From an uncultured Rikenellaceae bacterium (GTDB taxonomy: Bacteria > Bacteroidota > Bacteroidia > Bacteroidales > Rikenellaceae), in assembly GCA_944321925.1 (NCBI GenBank), contig CALUND010000017.1, forward strand, positions 1-64,000: a stretch of DNA of 64,000 nucleotides, in the 5' to 3' direction. A model generated the notes under the pieces. The model was not told where the DNA came from. It ran no database searches and saw only the letters and a list, made by a program, of their open reading frames with translations. The translations under genes and the position numbers were made by a program. Below are positions 13,391-27,134 of this stretch, in pieces (the stretch's first letter is position 1; each line of letters starts with the position of its first letter).

Positions 13391-15055
13391 CTATACGTTA
13401 TCCTTGTGAACCCCTTTCACAGCCCGACCGGAAGGCTCGTTCACATTCTGGAAAGAGGCATCCCATGCCAAAGCCTCCGCCGTACTGCAGGCGACAGAGG
13501 GAACAGAGGGAACGCACTGTGCCGCCGTCTGCGACGGGAAATGCTCCTCAAAAATCGTCCGGTAGTAATACTCCTCCTTGTTGCGGGGCGGGTTGATCGG
13601 GAAACGCTCCTTCACATGTTCCATTTCGCGGTCGGAAACCATTTCGGAGGTGATCCGTTTCAATGTGTCGATCCAACTGTAACCCACGCCGTCGGAGAAC
13701 TGCTCTTTCTGGCGCCAGGCCACGCTCTCGGGCAACATATCCTCGAACGCCTTGCGCAAGATCCACTTCTCGATCCGTCCGTTGCGGGCCATCTTTTCCG
13801 CCGGGTTGATACGCATGGCCACATCGAGGAACTCCTTGTCGAGGAAGGGAACACGCCCCTCCACACCCCAGGCACAAAGCGATTTATTGGCACGCAGACA
13901 GTCGTAAAGATGCAGCTTGCTCAATTTGCGCACGGTCTCTTCGTGGAATTCCCGCGCATTGGGAGCCTTGTGGAAATAGAGATAACCGCCGAAGATCTCA
14001 TCGGCCCCTTCTCCCGAGAGCACCATCTTGATTCCCATCGACTTAATGACCCGCGCCAACAGATACATCGGCGTAGAAGCACGTACGGTGGTCACGTCGT
14101 AGGTCTCGATGTAATAGATCACGTCACGAATGGCATCGAGCCCCTCCTGAACGGTGTAGTGGATCTCGTGATGGACCGTACCGATGTACTCGGCCACCTT
14201 CCGGGCCGCCTCCAGGTCGGGAGCGCCCTTCAAACCCACCGCAAAAGAGTGGAGCTGTGGCCACCAGGCCGCCTCCCGGCTATCGCTCTCCACACGCAAC
14301 GCCGCATATTTCTTGGCCACGGCCGAGATGATCGAAGAGTCGAGACCCCCCGAGAGAAGCACTCCGTAAGGCACATCGGACATCAGCTGACGCTTGACAG
14401 CAGCTTCGAGCGCCGCCCGCAACTCCTGAATATCGGCTCCGTTATCTTTGACATTCTCGTAATCGGTCCAGTCGCGTTCGTACCAACGGACCATCTTCCC
14501 ATCGCGGCTCGACCAATAATGGCCCGGGAGGAAGGGTTGAATCGTAGTACATACCCCCTCGAGCGCCTTCAGTTCGGAGGCAAAATAGAACTGTTCGTCG
14601 GCATCCCACCCTATATAAAGAGGAATAACCCCGATGTGATCGCGACCGATCAGATATTCGCCCCGCTCCACATCGTAGAGGGCAAACGCGAAAATGCCGT
14701 TCAGATGTTCGAACAGACCCGTTCCATATTTCTTATAAAGAGGCAGAATCACTTCGCAATCCGATCCGGTCTGGAAGTCGTACTCCCCGCTGAACTGCTC
14801 CCGGATCGCCTGATGGTTATATATCTCGCCATTGACGGCCAACACCAACTTGCCATCGGGACTGAAGAGCGGCTGACCGCCCGACTGCGGATCGACAATC
14901 GACAACCGTTCGTGGGCCAAAATAGCCCGCTCGCCACACCAGATACCCGACCAATCGGGACCGCGATGACGTATCTTTTTAGACATTCCGAGCAACCGAG
15001 GCCTGAGGCTCCCGGCATCCACCTTGAGGTCAAAAACCCCCACAATACCGCACAT
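13391..15055 (-). CDS. asnB: Asparagine synthase (glutamine-hydrolysing)
   Basis: Converts aspartate, glutamine and ATP to asparagine in the cytoplasm; 554 aa, the usual AsnB length. The N-terminal class II glutaminase domain begins MCGIVGVFD, with Cys2 as nucleophile after Met removal. RHRGPDWSG, HERLSIVDPQSGGQPL and NGEIYNH are glutaminase-pocket motifs. The C-terminal synthetase domain has the PP-loop LLSGGLDSS and LSGEGADEIFGGY. The start codon is fixed by the catalytic Cys2 requirement. A consensus promoter lies directly upstream, so it is monocistronic. The last 35 residues are more variable than the rest. Confidence 0.97.
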   Translation of the reverse strand: MCGIVGVFDLKVDAGSLRPRLLGMSKKIRHRGPDWSGIWCGERAILAHERLSIVDPQSGGQPLFSPDGKLVLAVNGEIYNHQAIREQFSGEYDFQTGSDCEVILPLYKKYGTGLFEHLNGIFAFALYDVERGEYLIGRDHIGVIPLYIGWDADEQFYFASELKALEGVCTTIQPFLPGHYWSSRDGKMVRWYERDWTDYENVKDNGADIQELRAALEAAVKRQLMSDVPYGVLLSGGLDSSIISAVAKKYAALRVESDSREAAWWPQLHSFAVGLKGAPDLEAARKVAEYIGTVHHEIHYTVQEGLDAIRDVIYYIETYDVTTVRASTPMYLLARVIKSMGIKMVLSGEGADEIFGGYLYFHKAPNAREFHEETVRKLSKLHLYDCLRANKSLCAWGVEGRVPFLDKEFLDVAMRINPAEKMARNGRIEKWILRKAFEDMLPESVAWRQKEQFSDGVGYSWIDTLKRITSEMVSDREMEHVKERFPINPPRNKEEYYYRTIFEEHFPSQTAAQCVPSVPSVACSTAEALAWDASFQNVNEPSGRAVKGVHKDNV

Positions 15056-15879: not shown

Positions 15880-15910
15880 TTTGTTTTTCTCCGACTCATC
15901 TCTATATTTG
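15880..15910 (+). promoter_or_regulatory. Consensus promoter of the trp operon
   Basis: TTTG (15880-15883), exactly 19 bases, then TATATTTG (15903-15910). The expected start near 15917 yields a leader of about 190 bases before trpB. That leader encodes the Trp-rich leader peptide and ends with a terminator hairpin. Confidence 0.85.
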
Positions 15911-15939
15911 CCACGAAGAACAATACAAATCGAATCGAA

Positions 15940-15996
15940 ATGTTCGGATCGAAACAATACTGGTGGTGGCGCAACTTACAACTTCCAAAGTCGTAG
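15940..15996 (+). CDS. trpL: Tryptophan operon leader peptide
   Basis: An 18-residue open frame, MFGSKQYWWWRNLQLPKS, beginning about 24 bases into the predicted transcript. Three consecutive Trp codons (TGG x3 at 15961-15969) act as a sensor for charged tRNA-Trp: the ribosome stalls on them when tryptophan is scarce. The frame is too short for routine gene calling. Its position between the trp promoter and a strong terminator hairpin just before trpB makes an attenuation role very likely. Confidence 0.88.
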   Translation: MFGSKQYWWWRNLQLPKS

Positions 15997-16074
15997 GGAG
16001 CGATCTCGTATTGGTATTGAATCAGCACATCACAACGAGCCTCATCGTAACTACGATGGGGCTCGTTTCTTTTC
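15949..16074 (+). promoter_or_regulatory. Transcription attenuator of the trp operon
   Basis: Terminator: ACGAGCC-T-CATCGT, loop AACT, ACGATG-G-GGCTCGT, then TTTCTTTT (16035-16074). Competing antiterminator: CGAT and CTCGT at 16001-16009 can pair with ATCG and ACGAG of the terminator's left arm (16035-16047). A further pairing, CAATAC (15955-15960) with GTATTG (16008-16013), would hold the antiterminator strand. A ribosome stalled on the Trp codons at 15961-15969 would mask CAATAC, freeing 16001-16013 to block the terminator. The pairings are visible in the sequence; the mechanism is inferred from classical trp attenuation. Confidence 0.8.
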
Positions 16075-16107
16075 GGGCATATCCAAAAAACAAAACGCAT
16101 AGACACG

Positions 16108-17301
16108 ATGAAAAACACAAAGACATTTCTGGTAAACGACGAGGGCTATTACGGTCGATTCGGAGGTTGCTACGTGCCGGAAATTCTCCACGGATGCGTG
16201 GAGGAGTTGCGACGCACCTATCTGTCGGTACTCGAAAGCGACGATTTCCGACAGGAATTCGACCGGTTGCTGCACGACTACGTGGGTCGTCCGTCGCCCC
16301 TCTACCTGGCCGGTCGGCTCTCCGAGAAGTACGGCTGCCGCATCTACCTGAAGCGGGAAGATCTGAACCACACCGGAGCACACAAGATCAACAACACCAT
16401 CGGACAGATTCTGCTCGCCCGCCGCATGGGTAAAAAACGGATCATCGCCGAGACGGGTGCGGGTCAGCACGGAGTGGCAACGGCCACGGTCTGCGCCCTG
16501 ATGAACATGCCCTGCGTAGTCTACATGGGCAAGACCGATGTGGAACGTCAACGGATAAACGTCGAAAAGATGCAGATGCTCGGGGCCGAGGTACGTCCCG
16601 TCACATCGGGCAACATGACGCTCAAAGACGCCACCAACGAGGCGATCCGCGACTGGTGCTGCCACCCTTCCGACACCTATTACATCATCGGGTCGACGGT
16701 GGGTCCGCACCCCTATCCCGACATGGTAGCGCGTCTTCAGTCGGTCATCAGCCGGGAGATTCGCGCCCAACTGCTCGAAAAAGAGGGACGCGACCACCCC
16801 GACTACCTCATCGCTTGCGTCGGCGGCGGCAGCAATGCGGCCGGAACCATCTACCACTACGTCGACGACGAACGCGTACGCATCGTGCTGGCCGAGGCGG
16901 GAGGCAAAGGAGTCGACAGCGGACAGACCGCTGCCACCATCCAACTGGGCCGCATCGGCATTCTGCACGGCGCAAAAACGATGGTCATTCAGAACGAGGA
17001 CGGACAGATCGAAGAGCCCTACTCCATCTCTGCCGGACTCGATTATCCCGGCGTAGGACCGATGCACGCCAACATGGCCCAAGCGGGTCGGTCGACAGTA
17101 CTGGCCGTCGATGACGACGAAGCCCTCGCCGCCGCCTACGAACTGACCCGACTGGAGGGGATCATCCCCGCCCTCGAATCGGCCCACGCCCTCGGAGCCC
17201 TTCCGAAAATGAAATTTCGGCCGCAGGAGATCGTCGTGCTGACCCTCTCCGGTCGCGGCGACAAAGATATGGACACCTACATTCGACACATGCAATCATG
17301 A
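16108..17301 (+). CDS. trpB: Tryptophan synthase beta chain
   Basis: PLP enzyme of 397 aa that condenses indole with serine to form tryptophan, working as an alpha2-beta2 complex with TrpA at the other end of this operon. Visible motifs are the opening GRFGGCYVPEIL, the PLP-binding lysine in NHTGAHKINN (about residue 94), AETGAGQHGVATA, and the phosphate-binding loop CVGGGSNAAG. It is the first gene after the attenuator, and its stop codon overlaps the trpE start by four bases (ATGA), implying translational coupling. The operon order trpB-E-G-D-C-F-A is typical of Bacteroidales. Confidence 0.97.
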   Translation: MKNTKTFLVNDEGYYGRFGGCYVPEILHGCVEELRRTYLSVLESDDFRQEFDRLLHDYVGRPSPLYLAGRLSEKYGCRIYLKREDLNHTGAHKINNTIGQILLARRMGKKRIIAETGAGQHGVATATVCALMNMPCVVYMGKTDVERQRINVEKMQMLGAEVRPVTSGNMTLKDATNEAIRDWCCHPSDTYYIIGSTVGPHPYPDMVARLQSVISREIRAQLLEKEGRDHPDYLIACVGGGSNAAGTIYHYVDDERVRIVLAEAGGKGVDSGQTAATIQLGRIGILHGAKTMVIQNEDGQIEEPYSISAGLDYPGVGPMHANMAQAGRSTVLAVDDDEALAAAYELTRLEGIIPALESAHALGALPKMKFRPQEIVVLTLSGRGDKDMDTYIRHMQS

Positions 17302-18704
17302 AGACTTTTCATTATACCGTCCGCAGCAAAAAAGTGCTGGGCGATCTCCACACCCCCGTAAGCATCTACCTGAAAGTGCGGGATCTCTATCCCCAGTCGG
17401 CCCTGCTCGAAAGTTCCGACTTCCATGCCGGAGAGAACTCGCTCTCTTACATCGCACTCGCACCCCTGGCCTCGGTCGCCGTCAACCACGGCCTCTGTAC
17501 GCTCTCCTTTCCCGATCGGAGCGTGGAACAAAAACCACTCGACGACCACTTCCGACTCGACGACGCCGTAAACCGCTTCCTCGATCGGTTTCAGGTGGAG
17601 GGAAACGACAGGAGCGTTTGCGGTCTGTTCGGCTACACAGCCTTCAATGCCGTCAAATACCTCGAACGGATTCCGGTCATGCCGACTCGCGACGAGCTGA
17701 ACGATGCCCCCGACCTGCTCTATATCCTCTATAAATATGTTCTGATATTCAACCACTTCAAAAACGAACTGACGCTTGTCGAGCTGCTCGCCGACGGGGA
17801 GGATTCTTCCCTCGAAGAGATCGAAACCGCCATCGCCGACCGCAACTTCGCCTCCTACGACTTCACCCCCAAAGGAGAGGTACGCAGTACGATGAGCGAC
17901 GAACAATACATGGAGTCCGTACGGCGCGGCATCGAGCATTGTCTGCGGGGAGACGTATTCCAGATCGTACTTTCACGACGGTTCGTACAACCCTACAGCG
18001 GCGACGACTTCAAGGTCTACCGCGCCCTGCGAAGCATCAACCCCTCCCCCTACCTTTTCTATTTCGATTTCGGCGGCTTCCGCATTTTCGGCTCATCGCC
18101 CGAAACCCACTGTAAGGTACAGGATGGGCGCATCACCATCGACCCGATCGCCGGAACGACCCGACGTACGGGCGACCTGACCCGGGACAAGCAACTCACC
18201 GAACAACTGCTGGCCGATCCCAAAGAGAACGCCGAACACGTGATGCTCGTCGACCTGGCCCGCAACGACCTGAGCCGCAACGCACACAACGTAGCGGTCG
18301 AATTCTACAAAGAGCCGCAATACTACAGCCACGTCATCCACCTCGTTTCGCGTGTCAGTGGCGAACTCGACGCCGATCGGAGCCCCGTAAGCGCATTTCT
18401 CGACACCTTCCCGGCCGGCACCCTAAGCGGCGCCCCGAAAGTACGCGCCATGGAGCTGATCTCCGCAATCGAACCGCACGACCGGGGTGCCTACGGCGGC
18501 TGCATCGGATTCATCGGATTCGACGGCAACCTGAATCAGGCCATCACCATCCGCTCGTTCGTCAGCCGCAACGGCGAACTCTCCTTCCAGGCGGGCGCGG
18601 GCATCGTTGCCAAGAGTTCGCCTGCCAATGAGCTGCAAGAGGTGAATAACAAACTGGGCGCACTCAAAAAAGCGGTAGACCTCGCCGCCACTCTCGACCA
18701 CTGA
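17298..18704 (+). CDS. trpE: Anthranilate synthase component I
   Basis: Chorismate-binding subunit (468 aa) that makes anthranilate from chorismate with ammonia supplied by TrpG. The N-terminal regulatory element ALLESSDF matches the LLES tryptophan feedback-inhibition motif of TrpE. The chorismate-binding core shows FQIVLSRRF, FGSSPETH, DPIAGTTRRTGD, LVDLARNDL and FPAGTLSGAPKVRAMELI. The LLES motif and the adjacent trpG favour TrpE over PabB. It overlaps trpB by four bases and lies 14 bases before trpG. Regulation is therefore probably double: transcriptional attenuation plus enzyme feedback. Confidence 0.96.
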   Translation: MKTFHYTVRSKKVLGDLHTPVSIYLKVRDLYPQSALLESSDFHAGENSLSYIALAPLASVAVNHGLCTLSFPDRSVEQKPLDDHFRLDDAVNRFLDRFQVEGNDRSVCGLFGYTAFNAVKYLERIPVMPTRDELNDAPDLLYILYKYVLIFNHFKNELTLVELLADGEDSSLEEIETAIADRNFASYDFTPKGEVRSTMSDEQYMESVRRGIEHCLRGDVFQIVLSRRFVQPYSGDDFKVYRALRSINPSPYLFYFDFGGFRIFGSSPETHCKVQDGRITIDPIAGTTRRTGDLTRDKQLTEQLLADPKENAEHVMLVDLARNDLSRNAHNVAVEFYKEPQYYSHVIHLVSRVSGELDADRSPVSAFLDTFPAGTLSGAPKVRAMELISAIEPHDRGAYGGCIGFIGFDGNLNQAITIRSFVSRNGELSFQAGAGIVAKSSPANELQEVNNKLGALKKAVDLAATLDH

Positions 18705-18718
18705 AAAAACCGAAGATC

Positions 18719-19291
18719 ATGAAACAGAAAACATTGCTGCTCGATAACTACGACTCCTTCACCTACAACCTGCTCCACCTGTTGCGGGAGTTAGGAGCCG
18801 ATGCCGAAGTCCGTCGCAACGACCAAATCACGCTGGAGGAGGTGGCCCGCTTCGACCGGATCATCCTCTCGCCCGGGCCGGGCATCCCCTCCGAAGCGGG
18901 AATTCTGTTGCCGCTCATCCGACGCTATGCTCCCAAAAAAAGCATTCTGGGCGTCTGTCTGGGCCATCAGGCCATTGCCGAGGCGTTCGGAGGCCGCCTC
19001 GAGAATCTTTCGGAGGTGTTCCACGGTGTACAGACTCCGATTCGGGTGATTCAGCCCGCAGAAAAGTTGTTTCGGGAACTCCCCACGACATTTCCCGTGG
19101 GTCGTTACCACTCCTGGATCGTGAGCCGGGAGAACCTCCCCGACTCGCTGGAGGTCACAGCCGTCGACGACGCCGGACACATCATGGCTCTCCGGCATCG
19201 CACCTACGATGTGCACGGCCTGCAGTTCCATCCCGAATCGATCCTTACCCCCAACGGGAAACAACTCATCGCCAATTTCTTAAACCGATAA
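18719..19291 (+). CDS. trpG: Anthranilate synthase glutamine amidotransferase component II
   Basis: Class I glutamine amidotransferase, 190 aa, giving ammonia to TrpE. It opens LLLDNYDSFTYNLLHLL, with the oxyanion region LSPGPGIPSEAG and the catalytic triad Cys in GVCLGHQ, His in LQFHPES and the following Glu. It is a stand-alone subunit rather than a TrpG-TrpD fusion. It sits between trpE and trpD with gaps of 14 and 4 bases. It may also serve a PabB elsewhere, as in many bacteria, but nothing here shows that. Confidence 0.95.
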   Translation: MKQKTLLLDNYDSFTYNLLHLLRELGADAEVRRNDQITLEEVARFDRIILSPGPGIPSEAGILLPLIRRYAPKKSILGVCLGHQAIAEAFGGRLENLSEVFHGVQTPIRVIQPAEKLFRELPTTFPVGRYHSWIVSRENLPDSLEVTAVDDAGHIMALRHRTYDVHGLQFHPESILTPNGKQLIANFLNR

Positions 19292-19295
19292 AAAA

Positions 19296-20291
19296 ATGAA
19301 AGAGATACTCTACAAGCTGTTCGAGCATCGCTATCTCGGACGCGAAGAAGCCCGTACGATCCTCACCGGCATCGCCCACGGAGCTTACAACGATGCGCAA
19401 ATCGCCTCGCTCATCACCGTGTTCCTCATGCGGAGCATCTCCGTGGAGGAGCTCATCGGTTTCCGGGAAGCCCTGCTCGAGATGCGTACGCCGGTCGATC
19501 TGGGCAACTGCCAGCCCATCGACATCGTGGGCACGGGCGGCGACGGGAAAAACACCTTCAACATCTCGACAGCAGCCTGTTTCGTCGTGGCGGGAGCCGG
19601 CTATCCCGTCGTAAAGCACGGCAACTACGGTGCCACCTCCGTAAGCGGCGCCAGCAACGTCATGGAGCAGCACGGTGTCCGCTTCACCACAGACAGCGCC
19701 CGACTCCGCCGCTCCATCGAGACATGCGGCATCGCCTATCTCCACGCCCCGCTGTTCAACCAGGCGCTCAAAGCGGTCGCCCCGATCCGACGGGCGCTCG
19801 GCGTACGCACCTTCTTCAACATGCTCGGCCCGCTGGTCAACCCCGTGATGCCCCGCTACCAACTGCTCGGCGTCTACAACCTGCCACTGCTCCGGCTCTA
19901 CTGCTACACCTACCAGGAGAGCGGCACAGACTACGCCGTCGTACACAGTCTCGACGGCTACGACGAAATATCGCTTACCGACGCCTTCAAGGTTGCGATG
20001 CCCGGCTGCGAGAAGCTCTACACCCCCGAAGAGCTCGGATTCGCCCGCTGCCGAGAGGAGGAGCTCTCCGGAGGAGAGACCCCCGAAGAGGCGGCCCGCA
20101 TTTTCGATCGCGTGCTCGACGGTACGGCCACACGCGCCCAAAGCGATTGCGTAGTCGCCAACGCAGCTTTCGCCATCCGGGTCATGTGCCCGCATAAGAG
20201 CCTCGAAACCTGCATCGACGAAGCCCGCACCTCGCTCGACAGCGGCCGGGCCAAATCGGTATTCCGCAAATTTGTCGAACTGAATCGGTAG
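19296..20291 (+). CDS. trpD: Anthranilate phosphoribosyltransferase
   Basis: Transfers the phosphoribosyl group of PRPP to anthranilate; 331 aa, normal family length. The PRPP-binding glycine-rich loop is DIVGTGGDGKNTFNIST. KHGNYGATSVSGASNVMEQHG and FNMLGPLVNP are further family signatures. The start follows trpG by four bases. All active-site motifs look intact. Confidence 0.96.
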   Translation: MKEILYKLFEHRYLGREEARTILTGIAHGAYNDAQIASLITVFLMRSISVEELIGFREALLEMRTPVDLGNCQPIDIVGTGGDGKNTFNISTAACFVVAGAGYPVVKHGNYGATSVSGASNVMEQHGVRFTTDSARLRRSIETCGIAYLHAPLFNQALKAVAPIRRALGVRTFFNMLGPLVNPVMPRYQLLGVYNLPLLRLYCYTYQESGTDYAVVHSLDGYDEISLTDAFKVAMPGCEKLYTPEELGFARCREEELSGGETPEEAARIFDRVLDGTATRAQSDCVVANAAFAIRVMCPHKSLETCIDEARTSLDSGRAKSVFRKFVELNR

Positions 20292-20298
20292 AACCCCT

Positions 20299-21093
20299 AT
20301 GAAAGATATTTTACAAACGATCATTGCAAGCAAACGATCGGAGATCGAACGTGCCAAAGCTGGAAAAACCTACGCCGAACTGGAACGTTCGATCGATCCG
20401 ACACGCCCCCGTCGTTCGCTCAAAACGGCATTGGCGACATCCGACACCGGCATTTTGGCCGAATTCAAACGGCGTTCTCCCTCCAAAGGGTGGATCCATC
20501 GGGATGCCGACCCCGTTGCCGTCAGTCGGGGCTACGAAACAGGCGGGGCCTCCGCCATCTCGGTACTGACCGACCCGGATTACTTCGGCGGCACACTCGA
20601 CGACCTGAAAAACGTGCGGCAAACCGTCTCGTTACCGATTCTGCGCAAAGAGTTCATCATCGATCCCTACCAACTGCTCGAGGCTGCAGCAGCCGGAGCC
20701 GACGCCGTCCTGCTAATTGCAGCAGCACTTGATATAACTCGATGCAAACAACTTTCCGAAAAAGCAAAAGAACTCGGACTGGAAGTATTGCTCGAAATAC
20801 ATTCGGAGCGGGAGATCGACTACCTGGAGGCCGAAGCCGATTTGATCGGAGTGAACAACCGCAACCTGGGAACCTTCATCACCGATCCGGAAAACTCCCT
20901 GCGTCTCGCCGAAAAATTGCCGAAAGAGAAGCTTCTCGTTTCGGAGAGCGGCATCTCGGACCCGCGTATCGTCGCCCGACTCCGCACGGCCGGCTACAAG
21001 GGATTCCTGATCGGCGAAACCTTCATGCGGGAAACGGACCCGGCTGCCGCTCTTGCCGAATTCATCGAACAGTTGAAAAAAACGGAGATATGA
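20299..21093 (+). CDS. trpC: Indole-3-glycerol phosphate synthase
   Basis: TIM-barrel enzyme (264 aa) that cyclises and decarboxylates CdRP to indole-3-glycerol phosphate. Family motifs: ILAEFKRRSPSKGWI (catalytic Lys and Ser), ISVLTDPDYFGG, PILRKEFIIDPYQ, ADLIGVNNRNL and VSESGISDP. It is a separate protein, unlike the TrpC-TrpF fusion of enterobacteria. Its stop overlaps the trpF start as ATGA. Confidence 0.96.
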   Translation: MKDILQTIIASKRSEIERAKAGKTYAELERSIDPTRPRRSLKTALATSDTGILAEFKRRSPSKGWIHRDADPVAVSRGYETGGASAISVLTDPDYFGGTLDDLKNVRQTVSLPILRKEFIIDPYQLLEAAAAGADAVLLIAAALDITRCKQLSEKAKELGLEVLLEIHSEREIDYLEAEADLIGVNNRNLGTFITDPENSLRLAEKLPKEKLLVSESGISDPRIVARLRTAGYKGFLIGETFMRETDPAAALAEFIEQLKKTEI

Positions 21094-21698
21094 TCGTGAA
21101 AATTTGCGGCATGCGCGATGCCGACAACATTCGCGAAATCGAACGCCTCGGCATAGATTGGATGGGCTTCATTTTTTACGAAGGCTCCGCGCGTCATATC
21201 CTCCGGAAACCGGCCTATCTGCCCGACAAAGCGCGCCGGGTAGGTGTATTCGTAAACGAACGACCGGAACGGATCGTTGAAATAGTCGCCGATTTCGATT
21301 TGTCATTCATTCAATTGCACGGTGACGAAACACCGGAGACCTGTCGAATTCTGCGAACGGCTGGCCAATCGCTTATCAAAGCGTTTCCGATCGCCAGCGA
21401 AAAGGACTTTCAAGCCACGGAGCCGTTCGAATCGCTGTGCGACTACTATCTTTTCGACACGAAAACATCCGGATATGGCGGTTCGGGCACCTCATTCGAC
21501 TGGTCGCTGCTCCGTCACTACCACGGGACGACCCCCTTTCTGCTGAGCGGCGGCATCGGTCCCGACGATGCAGAAGCCATCCTCAAGCTGCGGCATCTCC
21601 GGTTCGCCGGCATCGACCTAAACAGCCGTTTCGAAATCGTCCCCGGTCGGAAAGACCCGGAAACTGTACGAAATTTTTTAGCAAAAATCAGAAAATAA
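21090..21698 (+). CDS. trpF: Phosphoribosylanthranilate isomerase
   Basis: Amadori isomerase of 202 aa that converts PRA to CdRP, the substrate of TrpC. The start is the ATG at 21090, overlapping the trpC stop by four bases, which puts VKICGMRDADN (catalytic Cys) right at the N-terminus as in the family. Other motifs are FIQLHGDE, FLLSGGIGPDDA and GIDLNSRFE. The longer open frame to the left is just the trpC region in another phase and is not part of the protein. Confidence 0.95.
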   Translation: MIVKICGMRDADNIREIERLGIDWMGFIFYEGSARHILRKPAYLPDKARRVGVFVNERPERIVEIVADFDLSFIQLHGDETPETCRILRTAGQSLIKAFPIASEKDFQATEPFESLCDYYLFDTKTSGYGGSGTSFDWSLLRHYHGTTPFLLSGGIGPDDAEAILKLRHLRFAGIDLNSRFEIVPGRKDPETVRNFLAKIRK

Positions 21699-21708
21699 AA
21701 CAGATACC

Positions 21709-22485
21709 ATGAATCGCATCAACCAATTATTCAAAAACAAGAGACAAGACATTCTCTCCATCTATTTCTGTGCCGGCTACCCCGATCCCGACGGCACGAC
21801 AGAAACGATCGAAACCCTTGCCCGTAACGGAGTCGACATGATCGAAATCGGCATCCCCTTCAGCGATCCGATGGCCGATGGACCGGTTATCCAGCAGGCT
21901 GCTACCGAATCTCTGCGCAACGGCATGTCTCTACACAAACTTTTCGAATCGCTCTCCGAAATCCGCCAACGGGTCGATATCCCACTGCTGCTGATGGGTT
22001 ACCTCAATCCGGTGATGCAATACGGCTTCGAAAACTTTTGCCGCGCCTGCCAGGATTGCGGCATCGACGGATGCATCATCCCCGACCTGCCCTTCAAAGA
22101 GTACATGGAAGAGTATCGGGCAACGGCGGAACGATACGATCTGAAAATGATCATGCTCATCACGCCCGAGACAAGCGAAGAACGCATCAAATTGATAGAC
22201 AATCACACAGATGGATTTATCTACATGGTATCTTCAGCTGCAACAACCGGAGCGCAACACGATTTCGATGCCCGTAAGCAGGCCTATTTCGAGCGAATCG
22301 ACGGCATGGCGCTGCGCAATCCGCGCATGATCGGCTTCGGCATCTCCAACGAGGCCACATTCCGGGCAGCCTGCAAATATGCCTCCGGAGGAATCATCGG
22401 CAGTCGGTTCGTAACTTTGCAAAAAGAGAGGGGTGATTCCGAAACCGCCATCAAACAATTGCTTCATGAAATCGGCAAAAAATAG
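21709..22485 (+). CDS. trpA: Tryptophan synthase alpha chain
   Basis: TIM-barrel lyase (258 aa) that splits indole-3-glycerol phosphate and channels indole to TrpB. It shows AGYPDPDGT, the catalytic Glu and Asp in MIEIGIPFSDPMADGPVIQ, GCIIPDLPF and VSSAATTGA, where the family normally has TG and R/K residues. It is the last gene of the operon. No strong intrinsic terminator is visible right after the stop codon. Confidence 0.95.
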   Translation: MNRINQLFKNKRQDILSIYFCAGYPDPDGTTETIETLARNGVDMIEIGIPFSDPMADGPVIQQAATESLRNGMSLHKLFESLSEIRQRVDIPLLLMGYLNPVMQYGFENFCRACQDCGIDGCIIPDLPFKEYMEEYRATAERYDLKMIMLITPETSEERIKLIDNHTDGFIYMVSSAATTGAQHDFDARKQAYFERIDGMALRNPRMIGFGISNEATFRAACKYASGGIIGSRFVTLQKERGDSETAIKQLLHEIGKK

Positions 22486-24092: not shown

Positions 24093-27000
24093 TCAATCCT
24101 CGTTTGGTATAACAATCAGGACTCTTGAGGAGTAATCAACCGGACCGTTCTCAAAACCATAACCCTTGTTCTGGACAGCCACATCCCAAGACTTAAATTT
24201 AGGGTGATTCAAGACCGTATCGGGAATTAAACCGCTCAAGTTATTGTAATTCAGGTTAACAGATTGTAAGGCTGTCAGGTTACCGATCTCCGCCGGAATC
24301 GTGCCACTCAAATAATTTCTACCCAACCCTAAATTCGTCAATGCCGTCAAATTACCAATTTCAACTGGAATCCTGCCCCTCAAATAATTACCGCTCAGAT
24401 TCAAATTGGTCAATGCAGTCAGATTACCAATCTCAACGGGGATCGTGCTGCTCAAAGAATTTCCACTCAGATCCAAATTGGTCAACGCGGTCAAATTTCC
24501 AATCTCTACGGGGATTTTTCCCTTCAAAGAATTTCCGCTCAAATCCAAATTGGTCAAGCCAATCATATGCCCTATCTCGACCGGGAGTAACCCACTCAAT
24601 TTATTATCATGCAATTCTAAAGACTGAAGGTATTTCAACCCACTCATCTCAGCCGGAATCTGCCCACTCAGGTTATTGTTGTTCAAATTCAACAATCGAA
24701 GATTTTGCAGTTTACTAATTTCTGTCAAAATCTCCCCTGAAAATTTATTAAAGGACAAATTCAACTCCCTCAGCGACACTAATTTCCCGACTATAGACTG
24801 CAACTGACCTCCCAACCTATTTGAAGCTAAATTCAACTTCAGAAGTTGATTCAGATTACTGATCTCCACCGGGACCTTTCCTTTTAACCAATTGTTAGAC
24901 AAATTCAATTCCAATAAAGAGACGGCCTGACCAATCGTCTTCGGAATTCGGCCTTGCAATTCGCATCGAGAGAGATCCAACACGACTAATCCAGGTATTT
25001 CAAACAATTTGTCGCTAAGCCGACCATGAATTATCTTATCTTTCAATTTGACCGACAGTTCTCCATTCGTGTAATAGATGTCTTCCCATTCCTCCAGCGG
25101 GCGGTCTTCCTTCCATCCCCAGTTATTAAATTGTCTTTGGGTAATTCCCATATCTCGAAATGCATCCAACAACAATCTTTTGACAGTCCGCTCCTCCTCG
25201 AATGTGTTTTTTACATTTCGGTTTGACGATATCTCCTGCTTGGTCGCGGAAGTAATTCCCGACCCAGCTTGAGCTGTCTGAACCTTCGTATTAGCACCAT
25301 AATCAACTGACGGAACCGGATAATTTTCGAATCCATACCCTTTATTCTGGGGAAGTAAATCCCAATAAGAAAAAAGAGGGTGGCTTAATATCGCATCGGG
25401 GACCCATCCGCTCAAATTATTGTTTTTTAATGTCCAATCGAACACGAGTATTACCAATCCCTTGTTTTTCTTTCTCCTAATATTTCCCAGTTCGGCCGGG
25501 ATCGAACCGCTCAATTGGTTATGATCCAACCTTAATTTTTTAAGATTAACCAAATTACCGATTTCAGGAGGAATCGAGCCGGTCAAATTGTTATGGTTTA
25601 AACTCAGGCAATCAAGTTCTGTTAAATTCCCTATTTCGGGCGGGATTTCTCCGCTCAATTGATTATTATCTAAACACAATTCTTCCAACTGTGTTAAATT
25701 TCCGATTTCAACCGGGATCGGACTGTCCAATTGATTTCTACATAACAACAGCCAATTAAGCTTTGCCAGATTACCTATTTCTGCAGGAATTGCCCCGGAG
25801 AATTCATTGCTTGATAAGTTCAGAACGTTTAAAGATGTCAGATTTCCGATCTCTGCGGGAATGGATCCGCTCAAGTTATTGAACGATAACTGTAATGCAT
25901 TAAGACAACCCAGATTGCCTATATCGGATAAAATCGGGCCACTCAATTTATTACTATTTAAGATCAATTTTTCAAGATGCGTCAATCCGTAAATTTCATT
26001 CGGGATAGGTCCAATAAAACGATTCGATGATAAATCCAGTTGGGTCAGGGCCGTCAACTTTCCGATTGCCGAAGGGATAGAACCGCTCAGAAGATTATTT
26101 CTTAAATCTAAAATCTGAAGGTCTTTCAGTTCTCCCATCTCGGCTGGAATCTCTCCACTCAATTTATTATAGCCTACCACCATTTCTTTCAAGTGTGTCA
26201 ATTTGCCAATTTCATTCGGGATAGGTCCGATGAGACGATTCGATGATAAATCCAATTGGGTCAGGGCCGTCAACTTTCCGATTGCCGCAGGGATCGGACC
26301 GCTCAAAAGATTATTTCTTAAATCTAAAACTTGAAGATCTTTCAGTTCTCCCATCTCAACTGGAATCTCTCCACTCAATTTACTATTGATTACCACCAAC
26401 TCTTTCAAGTGTGTCAATTTGCCAATTTCATTCGGGATCGCACCTGAAAAATCATTCGATGATAAATCTAAATTACGCAGAGCTGTCAACTCTCCAATTT
26501 CTTTCGGCAGGGAGCCACTCAATTTATTGAATGCTAATGACAATTCTTCAAGATGTGTCAATTGGCCAATTTGTGCCGGAATTTTTCCAGACAAATCGGC
26601 ATATCTTAACCTAAGAGATTCAAGTTTTGTCAGATTGCCGATTTGTACCGGAATCTTTCCGGTAATTTTATTCATCGTCAAATTTAATTTCCGCAAATCG
26701 ACTGCCTGACCGATCGTTTTCGGGAGAGGTCCCCGTAATAAATTGGTCGGAAGATACACCTCTACCAACCCAGGAATCTTAAACAACTTACGGCTAAGTC
26801 GACCATTGAGTAGTTCTCCTTTTAATCTGACAGACAATTCCCCGTCCTTATAAGTAATACCTTTCCAATCATTCAACGGACACTCTTTCTGCCAGCCCCA
26901 TGACGCGAACTTCTCTTCGCTAACGCCCATCTCTCTAAATGCCTCCAAGAGCAACTTTTTGAGGGTCTTTTCATCCGTCGAGGCTCTCTTCTCGTCTGTA

Positions 27001-27134
27001 GTTGTTTGAGGTTCTTGCGCAATCGCAACGGCCGGCTCAATGGAGGTTTGCGACTCCCTAACGGCTCCATTGGCTCCGCTGCCGGCCAACAGCATCCCGA
27101 CGACCGACAGCCCTATCATCCAAAACCTTTTCAT
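24093..27134 (-). CDS. Secreted plant-type leucine-rich-repeat protein with duplicated architecture
   Basis: 1013 aa with a signal peptide (MKRFWMIGLSVVGMLLAGSG). It consists of two copies of one plan. Each copy starts with a cap (LLLEAFREMGVSEEKFASWGW and LLLDAFRDMGITQRQFNNWGW, then an NGELSV-type and a GRLSxKLFxIPGL segment). A ladder of 24-residue repeats of the type L-x-G-x-IP-x-EIGNL-x-x-L-x-x-L-x-L-x-x-N follows: about 19 in copy 1 and 11 in copy 2. Each copy then ends in a tail NHPxFxxWD..QNKGYGFEN (about residues 585-615 and 980-1000). The IP-x-EIGNL consensus is the plant-specific LRR class. No anchor or catalytic domain is visible, so a periplasmic or secreted binding protein is inferred. 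GC content is visibly lower (near 40% in sampled stretches) than in flanking genes, suggesting transfer. Confidence 0.88.
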   Translation of the reverse strand: MKRFWMIGLSVVGMLLAGSGANGAVRESQTSIEPAVAIAQEPQTTTDEKRASTDEKTLKKLLLEAFREMGVSEEKFASWGWQKECPLNDWKGITYKDGELSVRLKGELLNGRLSRKLFKIPGLVEVYLPTNLLRGPLPKTIGQAVDLRKLNLTMNKITGKIPVQIGNLTKLESLRLRYADLSGKIPAQIGQLTHLEELSLAFNKLSGSLPKEIGELTALRNLDLSSNDFSGAIPNEIGKLTHLKELVVINSKLSGEIPVEMGELKDLQVLDLRNNLLSGPIPAAIGKLTALTQLDLSSNRLIGPIPNEIGKLTHLKEMVVGYNKLSGEIPAEMGELKDLQILDLRNNLLSGSIPSAIGKLTALTQLDLSSNRFIGPIPNEIYGLTHLEKLILNSNKLSGPILSDIGNLGCLNALQLSFNNLSGSIPAEIGNLTSLNVLNLSSNEFSGAIPAEIGNLAKLNWLLLCRNQLDSPIPVEIGNLTQLEELCLDNNQLSGEIPPEIGNLTELDCLSLNHNNLTGSIPPEIGNLVNLKKLRLDHNQLSGSIPAELGNIRRKKNKGLVILVFDWTLKNNNLSGWVPDAILSHPLFSYWDLLPQNKGYGFENYPVPSVDYGANTKVQTAQAGSGITSATKQEISSNRNVKNTFEEERTVKRLLLDAFRDMGITQRQFNNWGWKEDRPLEEWEDIYYTNGELSVKLKDKIIHGRLSDKLFEIPGLVVLDLSRCELQGRIPKTIGQAVSLLELNLSNNWLKGKVPVEISNLNQLLKLNLASNRLGGQLQSIVGKLVSLRELNLSFNKFSGEILTEISKLQNLRLLNLNNNNLSGQIPAEMSGLKYLQSLELHDNKLSGLLPVEIGHMIGLTNLDLSGNSLKGKIPVEIGNLTALTNLDLSGNSLSSTIPVEIGNLTALTNLNLSGNYLRGRIPVEIGNLTALTNLGLGRNYLSGTIPAEIGNLTALQSVNLNYNNLSGLIPDTVLNHPKFKSWDVAVQNKGYGFENGPVDYSSRVLIVIPNED

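Follow-up and report, generated by a model that had tools for sequence, protein, structure and literature searches.

The region upstream of trpB in the window (the whole stretch of 64,000 nucleotides analysed here) very probably contains a ribosome-mediated transcription attenuator of the trp operon that is also a divergent member of the Rfam family RF01692 (Bacteroid-trp), as judged from its sequence and from modelled folding. Little is new in the kind of element, which RF01692 covers; what our analysis adds is an antiterminator in which the stop codon of the leader peptide is embedded, the RF01692 model being devoid of an antiterminator. A preliminary description of this DNA was right on the kind of element and on nearly all of its parts.

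Promoter, leader peptide and trp operon

All features of the leader and its operon lie on the plus strand. The promoter (15880-15910) consists of a -33 TTTG (15880-15883), a 19-nt spacer and the -7 element TATATTTG (15903-15910), and would start transcription near 15917. It had been called a consensus promoter, and it is one, although of the Bacteroidota sigma-ABfr type, with which TTTG-N19-TATATTTG agrees, and not of the sigma-70 type (consensus: PMC7366714). Downstream of it an open reading frame of 18 codons, from ATG to UAG (15940-15996), encodes the peptide MFGSKQYWWWRNLQLPKS, in which the regulatory codons are three consecutive Trp UGG codons (UGGUGGUGG, 15961-15969), as had been read from the letters. 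The sequence ahead of the ATG is A-rich and carries no Shine-Dalgarno motif, and a Shine-Dalgarno-like motif was found upstream of the leader ATG in only one of 100 relatives. The promoter recurs in these relatives, with TANNTTTG present within 90 nt 5' of the leader ATG in 95 of the 100, compared with 4% of shuffles, and the -33 TTTG additionally present in 62.

The leader is intergenic, lying between a divergent asparagine-synthase-like ORF (13391-15055, minus strand) and trpB (16108-17301; TIGR00263, 576 bits), the first gene of the regulated operon. The site had been placed just before trpB of a trp operon, and the operon proved to be complete in the window, trpB being followed at 17298-22485 by trpE (17298-18704), trpG (18719-19291), trpD (19296-20291), trpC (20299-21093), trpF (about 21087-21698) and trpA (21709-22485).

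Conservation of the leader among relatives

From 101 genomes of the same family, a search retrieved 30 trpB loci together with their upstream sequence, the window included, and a short ATG ORF with WW or WWW was present 80-260 nt before trpB in all 30. A scan of GTDB genomes with the window's TrpB yielded 80 more loci, nearly all bearing Bacteroidales names, of which 79 had enough sequence; a WW or WWW leader was found at 72 of these, and the leader scan detected none at the remaining seven. By chance, a WWW leader arose once in 10,700 mononucleotide-shuffled upstream regions of 300 nt. An intrinsic terminator stood between leader and gene at 99 of 100 loci, the exception being locus L005, where none was detected. 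Thus the Trp run, the hairpins and the promoter recur upstream of trpB within the family and in other, nearly all Bacteroidales, genomes. The alignment of trpB upstream regions that had been proposed as a check thereby supports the reading of the leader as an attenuator, and the outcome named as its refutation, hairpins kept while the leader frame or its Trp codons are lost, was not what these loci displayed. The trpB loci at which the scan detected no WW leader include L058, L093, L094, L103, L133 and L134, which may have degenerate leaders, other start codons or true losses.

A covariance model of the 1:2 and 3:4 hairpins was used to search 392 Bacteroidota genomes and found leaders in 71. 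In leaders from other families of the class, which precede a trpE-like gene, a GUCGUGA/UCACGAC pairing was again present; these trpE-first leaders were absent from the training set of the model that found them, and those that were tested match RF01692.

Membership of RF01692 and relation to known attenuators

At gathering thresholds no Rfam family, T-box included, matches the window. At a permissive threshold RF01692 aligns over its full model (1-131) with 19.9 bits (E 9.1), a score below the gathering cut-off of 49 bits, so that the score by itself does not confer membership, whereas relatives from Bacteroides and Parabacteroides score 67-100 bits. The window aligns, however, with leaders that are all over the cut-off and in the same place before trp genes (L056, L057, L059, L064 and L079), and it contains the conserved 1:2 core of the family, CAACUU..AAGUCGUA. 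A model built on the aligned relatives (R1) gives the window 81.6 bits, the window itself being in the training set of R1. On these sequence comparisons, the window leader is a divergent member of RF01692 and of a known kind. The preliminary description had implied novelty in remarking that such leaders are easily missed, and this cannot be upheld, since the leader belongs to a family published in 2010 as the 'tryptophan peptide leader RNA' of Bacteroidetes (Weinberg et al. 2010, PMC2864571). The RF01692 model nevertheless misses many leaders: only 4 of 101 genomes of the window's family pass its cut-off, yet the leader stands at 30 of 30 trpB loci.

The likeness of Bacteroid-trp to the Escherichia coli attenuator has been noted for Flavobacterium psychrophilum (PMC6414381), for which a transcriptome study proposed leader-peptide attenuation before amino-acid operons (PMC9723704); no experiment testing Bacteroid-trp turned up in the literature that we searched. 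With RF01692 the window has in common the place before trp genes, the Trp-codon leader, the 1:2 hairpin and the full-length alignment, but the RF01692 model ends inside the 5' arm of the terminator and thus lacks the terminator and the antiterminator described here. With E. coli trpL (Rfam Trp_leader, which gave no match to the window up to E 10) it shares consecutive Trp codons, mutually exclusive 1:2, 2:3 and 3:4 pairings and a terminator before the first gene, but differs in its Bacteroidota promoter, in having no Shine-Dalgarno site and in placing within region 2 a stop codon that base-pairs with the loop of the terminator. The trp leader attenuators of Actinobacteria (PMC1262725) are described as using the same general mechanism outside Proteobacteria.

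The 1:2 hairpin and the terminator

The segment 15917-16080, whose unmasked fold had been suggested as a check, folds at -55.8 kcal/mol (z = -5.4), and none of 200 shuffles was equally stable. In this minimum-energy fold the 1:2 hairpin spans 15955-16019, with a core that pairs 15975-15983 with 15989-15997 and an outer stem, CAATAC/GTATTG, that pairs 15955-15960 with 16014-16019 exactly as previously claimed. The core covaries among relatives, 89% of cells being paired (score 0.36, against 0.25 when shuffled). The terminator (3:4) is a 15-bp hairpin of -24.7 kcal/mol at 16034-16067, followed by a U-rich tail to about 16073; the strong terminator earlier put at 16035-16074 is this stem together with its tail. 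Terminator and U tract end about 34 nt before trpB. Covariation in 3:4 is also marked, with 105 double-changed cells against 29 when shuffled.

An antiterminator with an embedded stop codon

Duplex calculation, nascent folding and covariation define region 2, the antiterminator strand, at 15990-16009, where 15990-15996 (GUCGUAG) and 16000-16009 (GCGAUCUCGU) pair with region 3 (16035-16057), that is with the terminator 5' arm (16035-16039 and 16044-16048) and with its loop and upper 3' arm (16051-16057, CUACGAU). The duplex of the two regions has an energy of -19.5 kcal/mol, and region 2 also forms the 3' half of the 1:2 hairpin. The leader stop UAG (15994-15996) is contained in the strand GUCGUAG. 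A competing strand had been recognised before, at 16001-16013, and it is real in part; its extent had been drawn too small, as the true one is wider, includes the leader stop and takes the terminator loop as well as the 5' arm.

When the relatives are aligned, the sequence YUYRCGAC of the terminator loop and upper 3' arm proves to be the complement of GUCGURAG in region 2. Pairing of region 2 with the terminator of the same leader is stronger (mean -18.8 kcal/mol) than with terminators of other leaders (mean -16.3 kcal/mol; z -8.8), a preference that persists on 60 dereplicated sequences (z -7.3). With the terminator 5' arm alone there was no excess of own over foreign pairing (z +0.3 to +1.0), and hence the 2:3 covariation rests on the loop and the 3' part. 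Across an alignment of 57 sequences, 93.6% of the cells for the eight 2:3 pairs hold a standard pair, and the covariation score is 0.348, which falls to 0.253 on shuffling and to no more than 0.121 on sliding. The middle base of the stop codon and its loop base were G-C in 26 and A-U in 25 of the 57 sequences. These sequence counts exceed the number of independent events, the 2:3 sites having changed only four to seven times each on the TrpB tree, and tree-based independent-pair and sign tests had too few changed branches to reach significance. RNAalifold on the whole alignment recovered the terminator alone, because mutually exclusive structures compete.

Of 99 leaders, 56 have the URA of GUCGURAG as their stop codon, and which stop is used goes with the terminator loop, UAA occurring mostly with UUA or UUG, UGA with UCA, and UAG with CUA or CUG; in other leaders the stop has moved and the RNA motif is kept. 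From these alignments we consider it likely that, across the class Bacteroidia, the Bacteroid-trp antiterminator pairs with the loop and upper 3' arm of the terminator and has the leader stop within its strand, with the choice of stop coevolving with the loop.

This pattern bears on one rival explanation, a TnaC-like nascent-peptide arrest in which a conserved C-terminal LQLxKS peptide, and not codon supply, stalls the ribosome. An R-x-LQL-x-KS end does recur in many relatives. However, the reading frame through the RNA motif changes, giving KS-stop, KSREG, NCE-stop and VVNS endings while the motif is kept, and the middle base of the stop covaries with the terminator loop; together these place the conservation at the level of the RNA, and the RNA motif accounts for the conserved 'KS-stop' peptide end. 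The regulatory Trp codons, moreover, form a run, as in sensors of tRNA charging. Selection on the C-terminus at the peptide level was thus rejected, and we regard peptide arrest as very improbable.

Separately, AAGUCGUA of region 2 (15988-15995) appears similar to AAGUCGUAAC, which in 16S rRNA lies close to the 3' end; the resemblance is probably due to chance.

Computed states of the switch and a proposed mechanism

The effect of ribosome position was computed by folding the nascent chain with ribosome and polymerase footprints assumed from E. coli, and the outcome depends on these footprints, which we infer to apply here. In the window, with a ribosome stalled at the third Trp codon and the free RNA end at 16058-16060, the 2:3 pairing had a probability of 0.83-0.98 and 3:4 one of at most 0.04; when the ribosome stood at the stop codon, or when there was none, 3:4 rose to 0.34-0.50 and 2:3 was about 0. 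A stall at the first Trp codon gave a weaker switch. For 99 loci, terminator probability at the decision point averaged 0.12 with the ribosome stalled, 0.62 with it at the stop and 0.60 without it, and shuffling region 2 in the stalled state raised it to 0.53. The earlier proposal that a ribosome stalled on the Trp codons would mask the 1:2 pairing agrees with these computed states, the stalled footprint giving the antiterminator and the other states the terminator. In the complete transcript at equilibrium, the terminator (-24.7 kcal/mol) beats the antiterminator (about -15.6 kcal/mol), and once the whole 3' arm is free it wins in every ribosome state. The decision must therefore be kinetic, as in known attenuators.

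The following sequence of events is proposed. Transcription would begin near 15917 and a ribosome would initiate on the leader ORF without a Shine-Dalgarno site. When charged tRNA-Trp is scarce, the ribosome would stall on the UGG codons and cover region 1 (15975-15983), leaving region 2 free to pair with region 3 of the terminator, and polymerase would read through into trpB. When Trp is plentiful, the ribosome would reach the UAG at 15994-15996 and, as this stop lies inside region 2, would cover that region on terminating, so that the terminator could fold and stop transcription near 16073. In the absence of a ribosome, region 2 would be held in the 1:2 hairpin, and here too the terminator would form. 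The response to Trp is in this scheme an expectation from the computed states.

The preliminary interpretation as a Trp-codon attenuator is supported by the conserved leader, by covariation in each of 1:2, 2:3 and 3:4 and by the expected structures in three ribosome states. Parts, conservation, covariation and the energetics of these states were established by computation. A short ORF bearing a run of Trp codons precedes the trp genes, as in the functional class, and the mutually exclusive terminator and antiterminator were demonstrated by computation only. The same evidence weighs on a second rival, in which a constitutive terminator follows a chance ORF and an ordinary 5'-UTR hairpin allows partial read-through with no sensing of Trp. 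The hairpin is indeed very stable, and the window leader is known from its sequence and from calculation only, but a WWW leader as rare among shuffles as stated above is set against near-universal conservation, and the three pairings covary; we judge this explanation extremely unlikely. A third rival, control at the level of translation or by a protein (TRAP-like or T-box) for which the hairpins would be the binding site, has the precedent that trp genes of other phyla are regulated by TRAP or T-box, and is just as implausible here, given that neither a T-box nor any other Rfam family reaches gathering score in the window, no (G/U)AG repeat array is visible and the terminator with its U tract finishes about 34 nt before trpB.

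To our knowledge, Bacteroidota are without Shine-Dalgarno sites and little of their post-transcriptional control has been established. If a ribosome on a leader lacking such a site is to steer polymerase, as a conserved attenuator of the type favoured here implies, translation must follow transcription closely in time, and the antiterminator worked out above offers a precise and cheap test of transcription-translation coupling in laboratory strains of Bacteroides.

Distribution of the trp operon

The trp operon is patchily distributed, trpE being present in none of 10 other genomes sampled from the genus, in which trpB was represented only by paralogues of about 30% identity. The window's TrpB is up to 83% identical to that of Parabacteroides and 80% or less within its own family, and it fell outside the main clade of its family in a quick, weakly supported tree; RelA from the same contig groups with the window's family. 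Horizontal gain or differential loss of the operon is possible. Another genome of the family (G014) carries two Bacteroid-trp elements (L032 and L053), each directly upstream of one TrpB copy, the two copies sharing about 60% and 71% identity with TrpB of the window. Further downstream in the window, on the minus strand (24093-27134), lies a 1013-aa ORF of leucine-rich repeats (LxxLxLxxNxLSGxIPxEIGNLT) that resemble plant-type LRRs.
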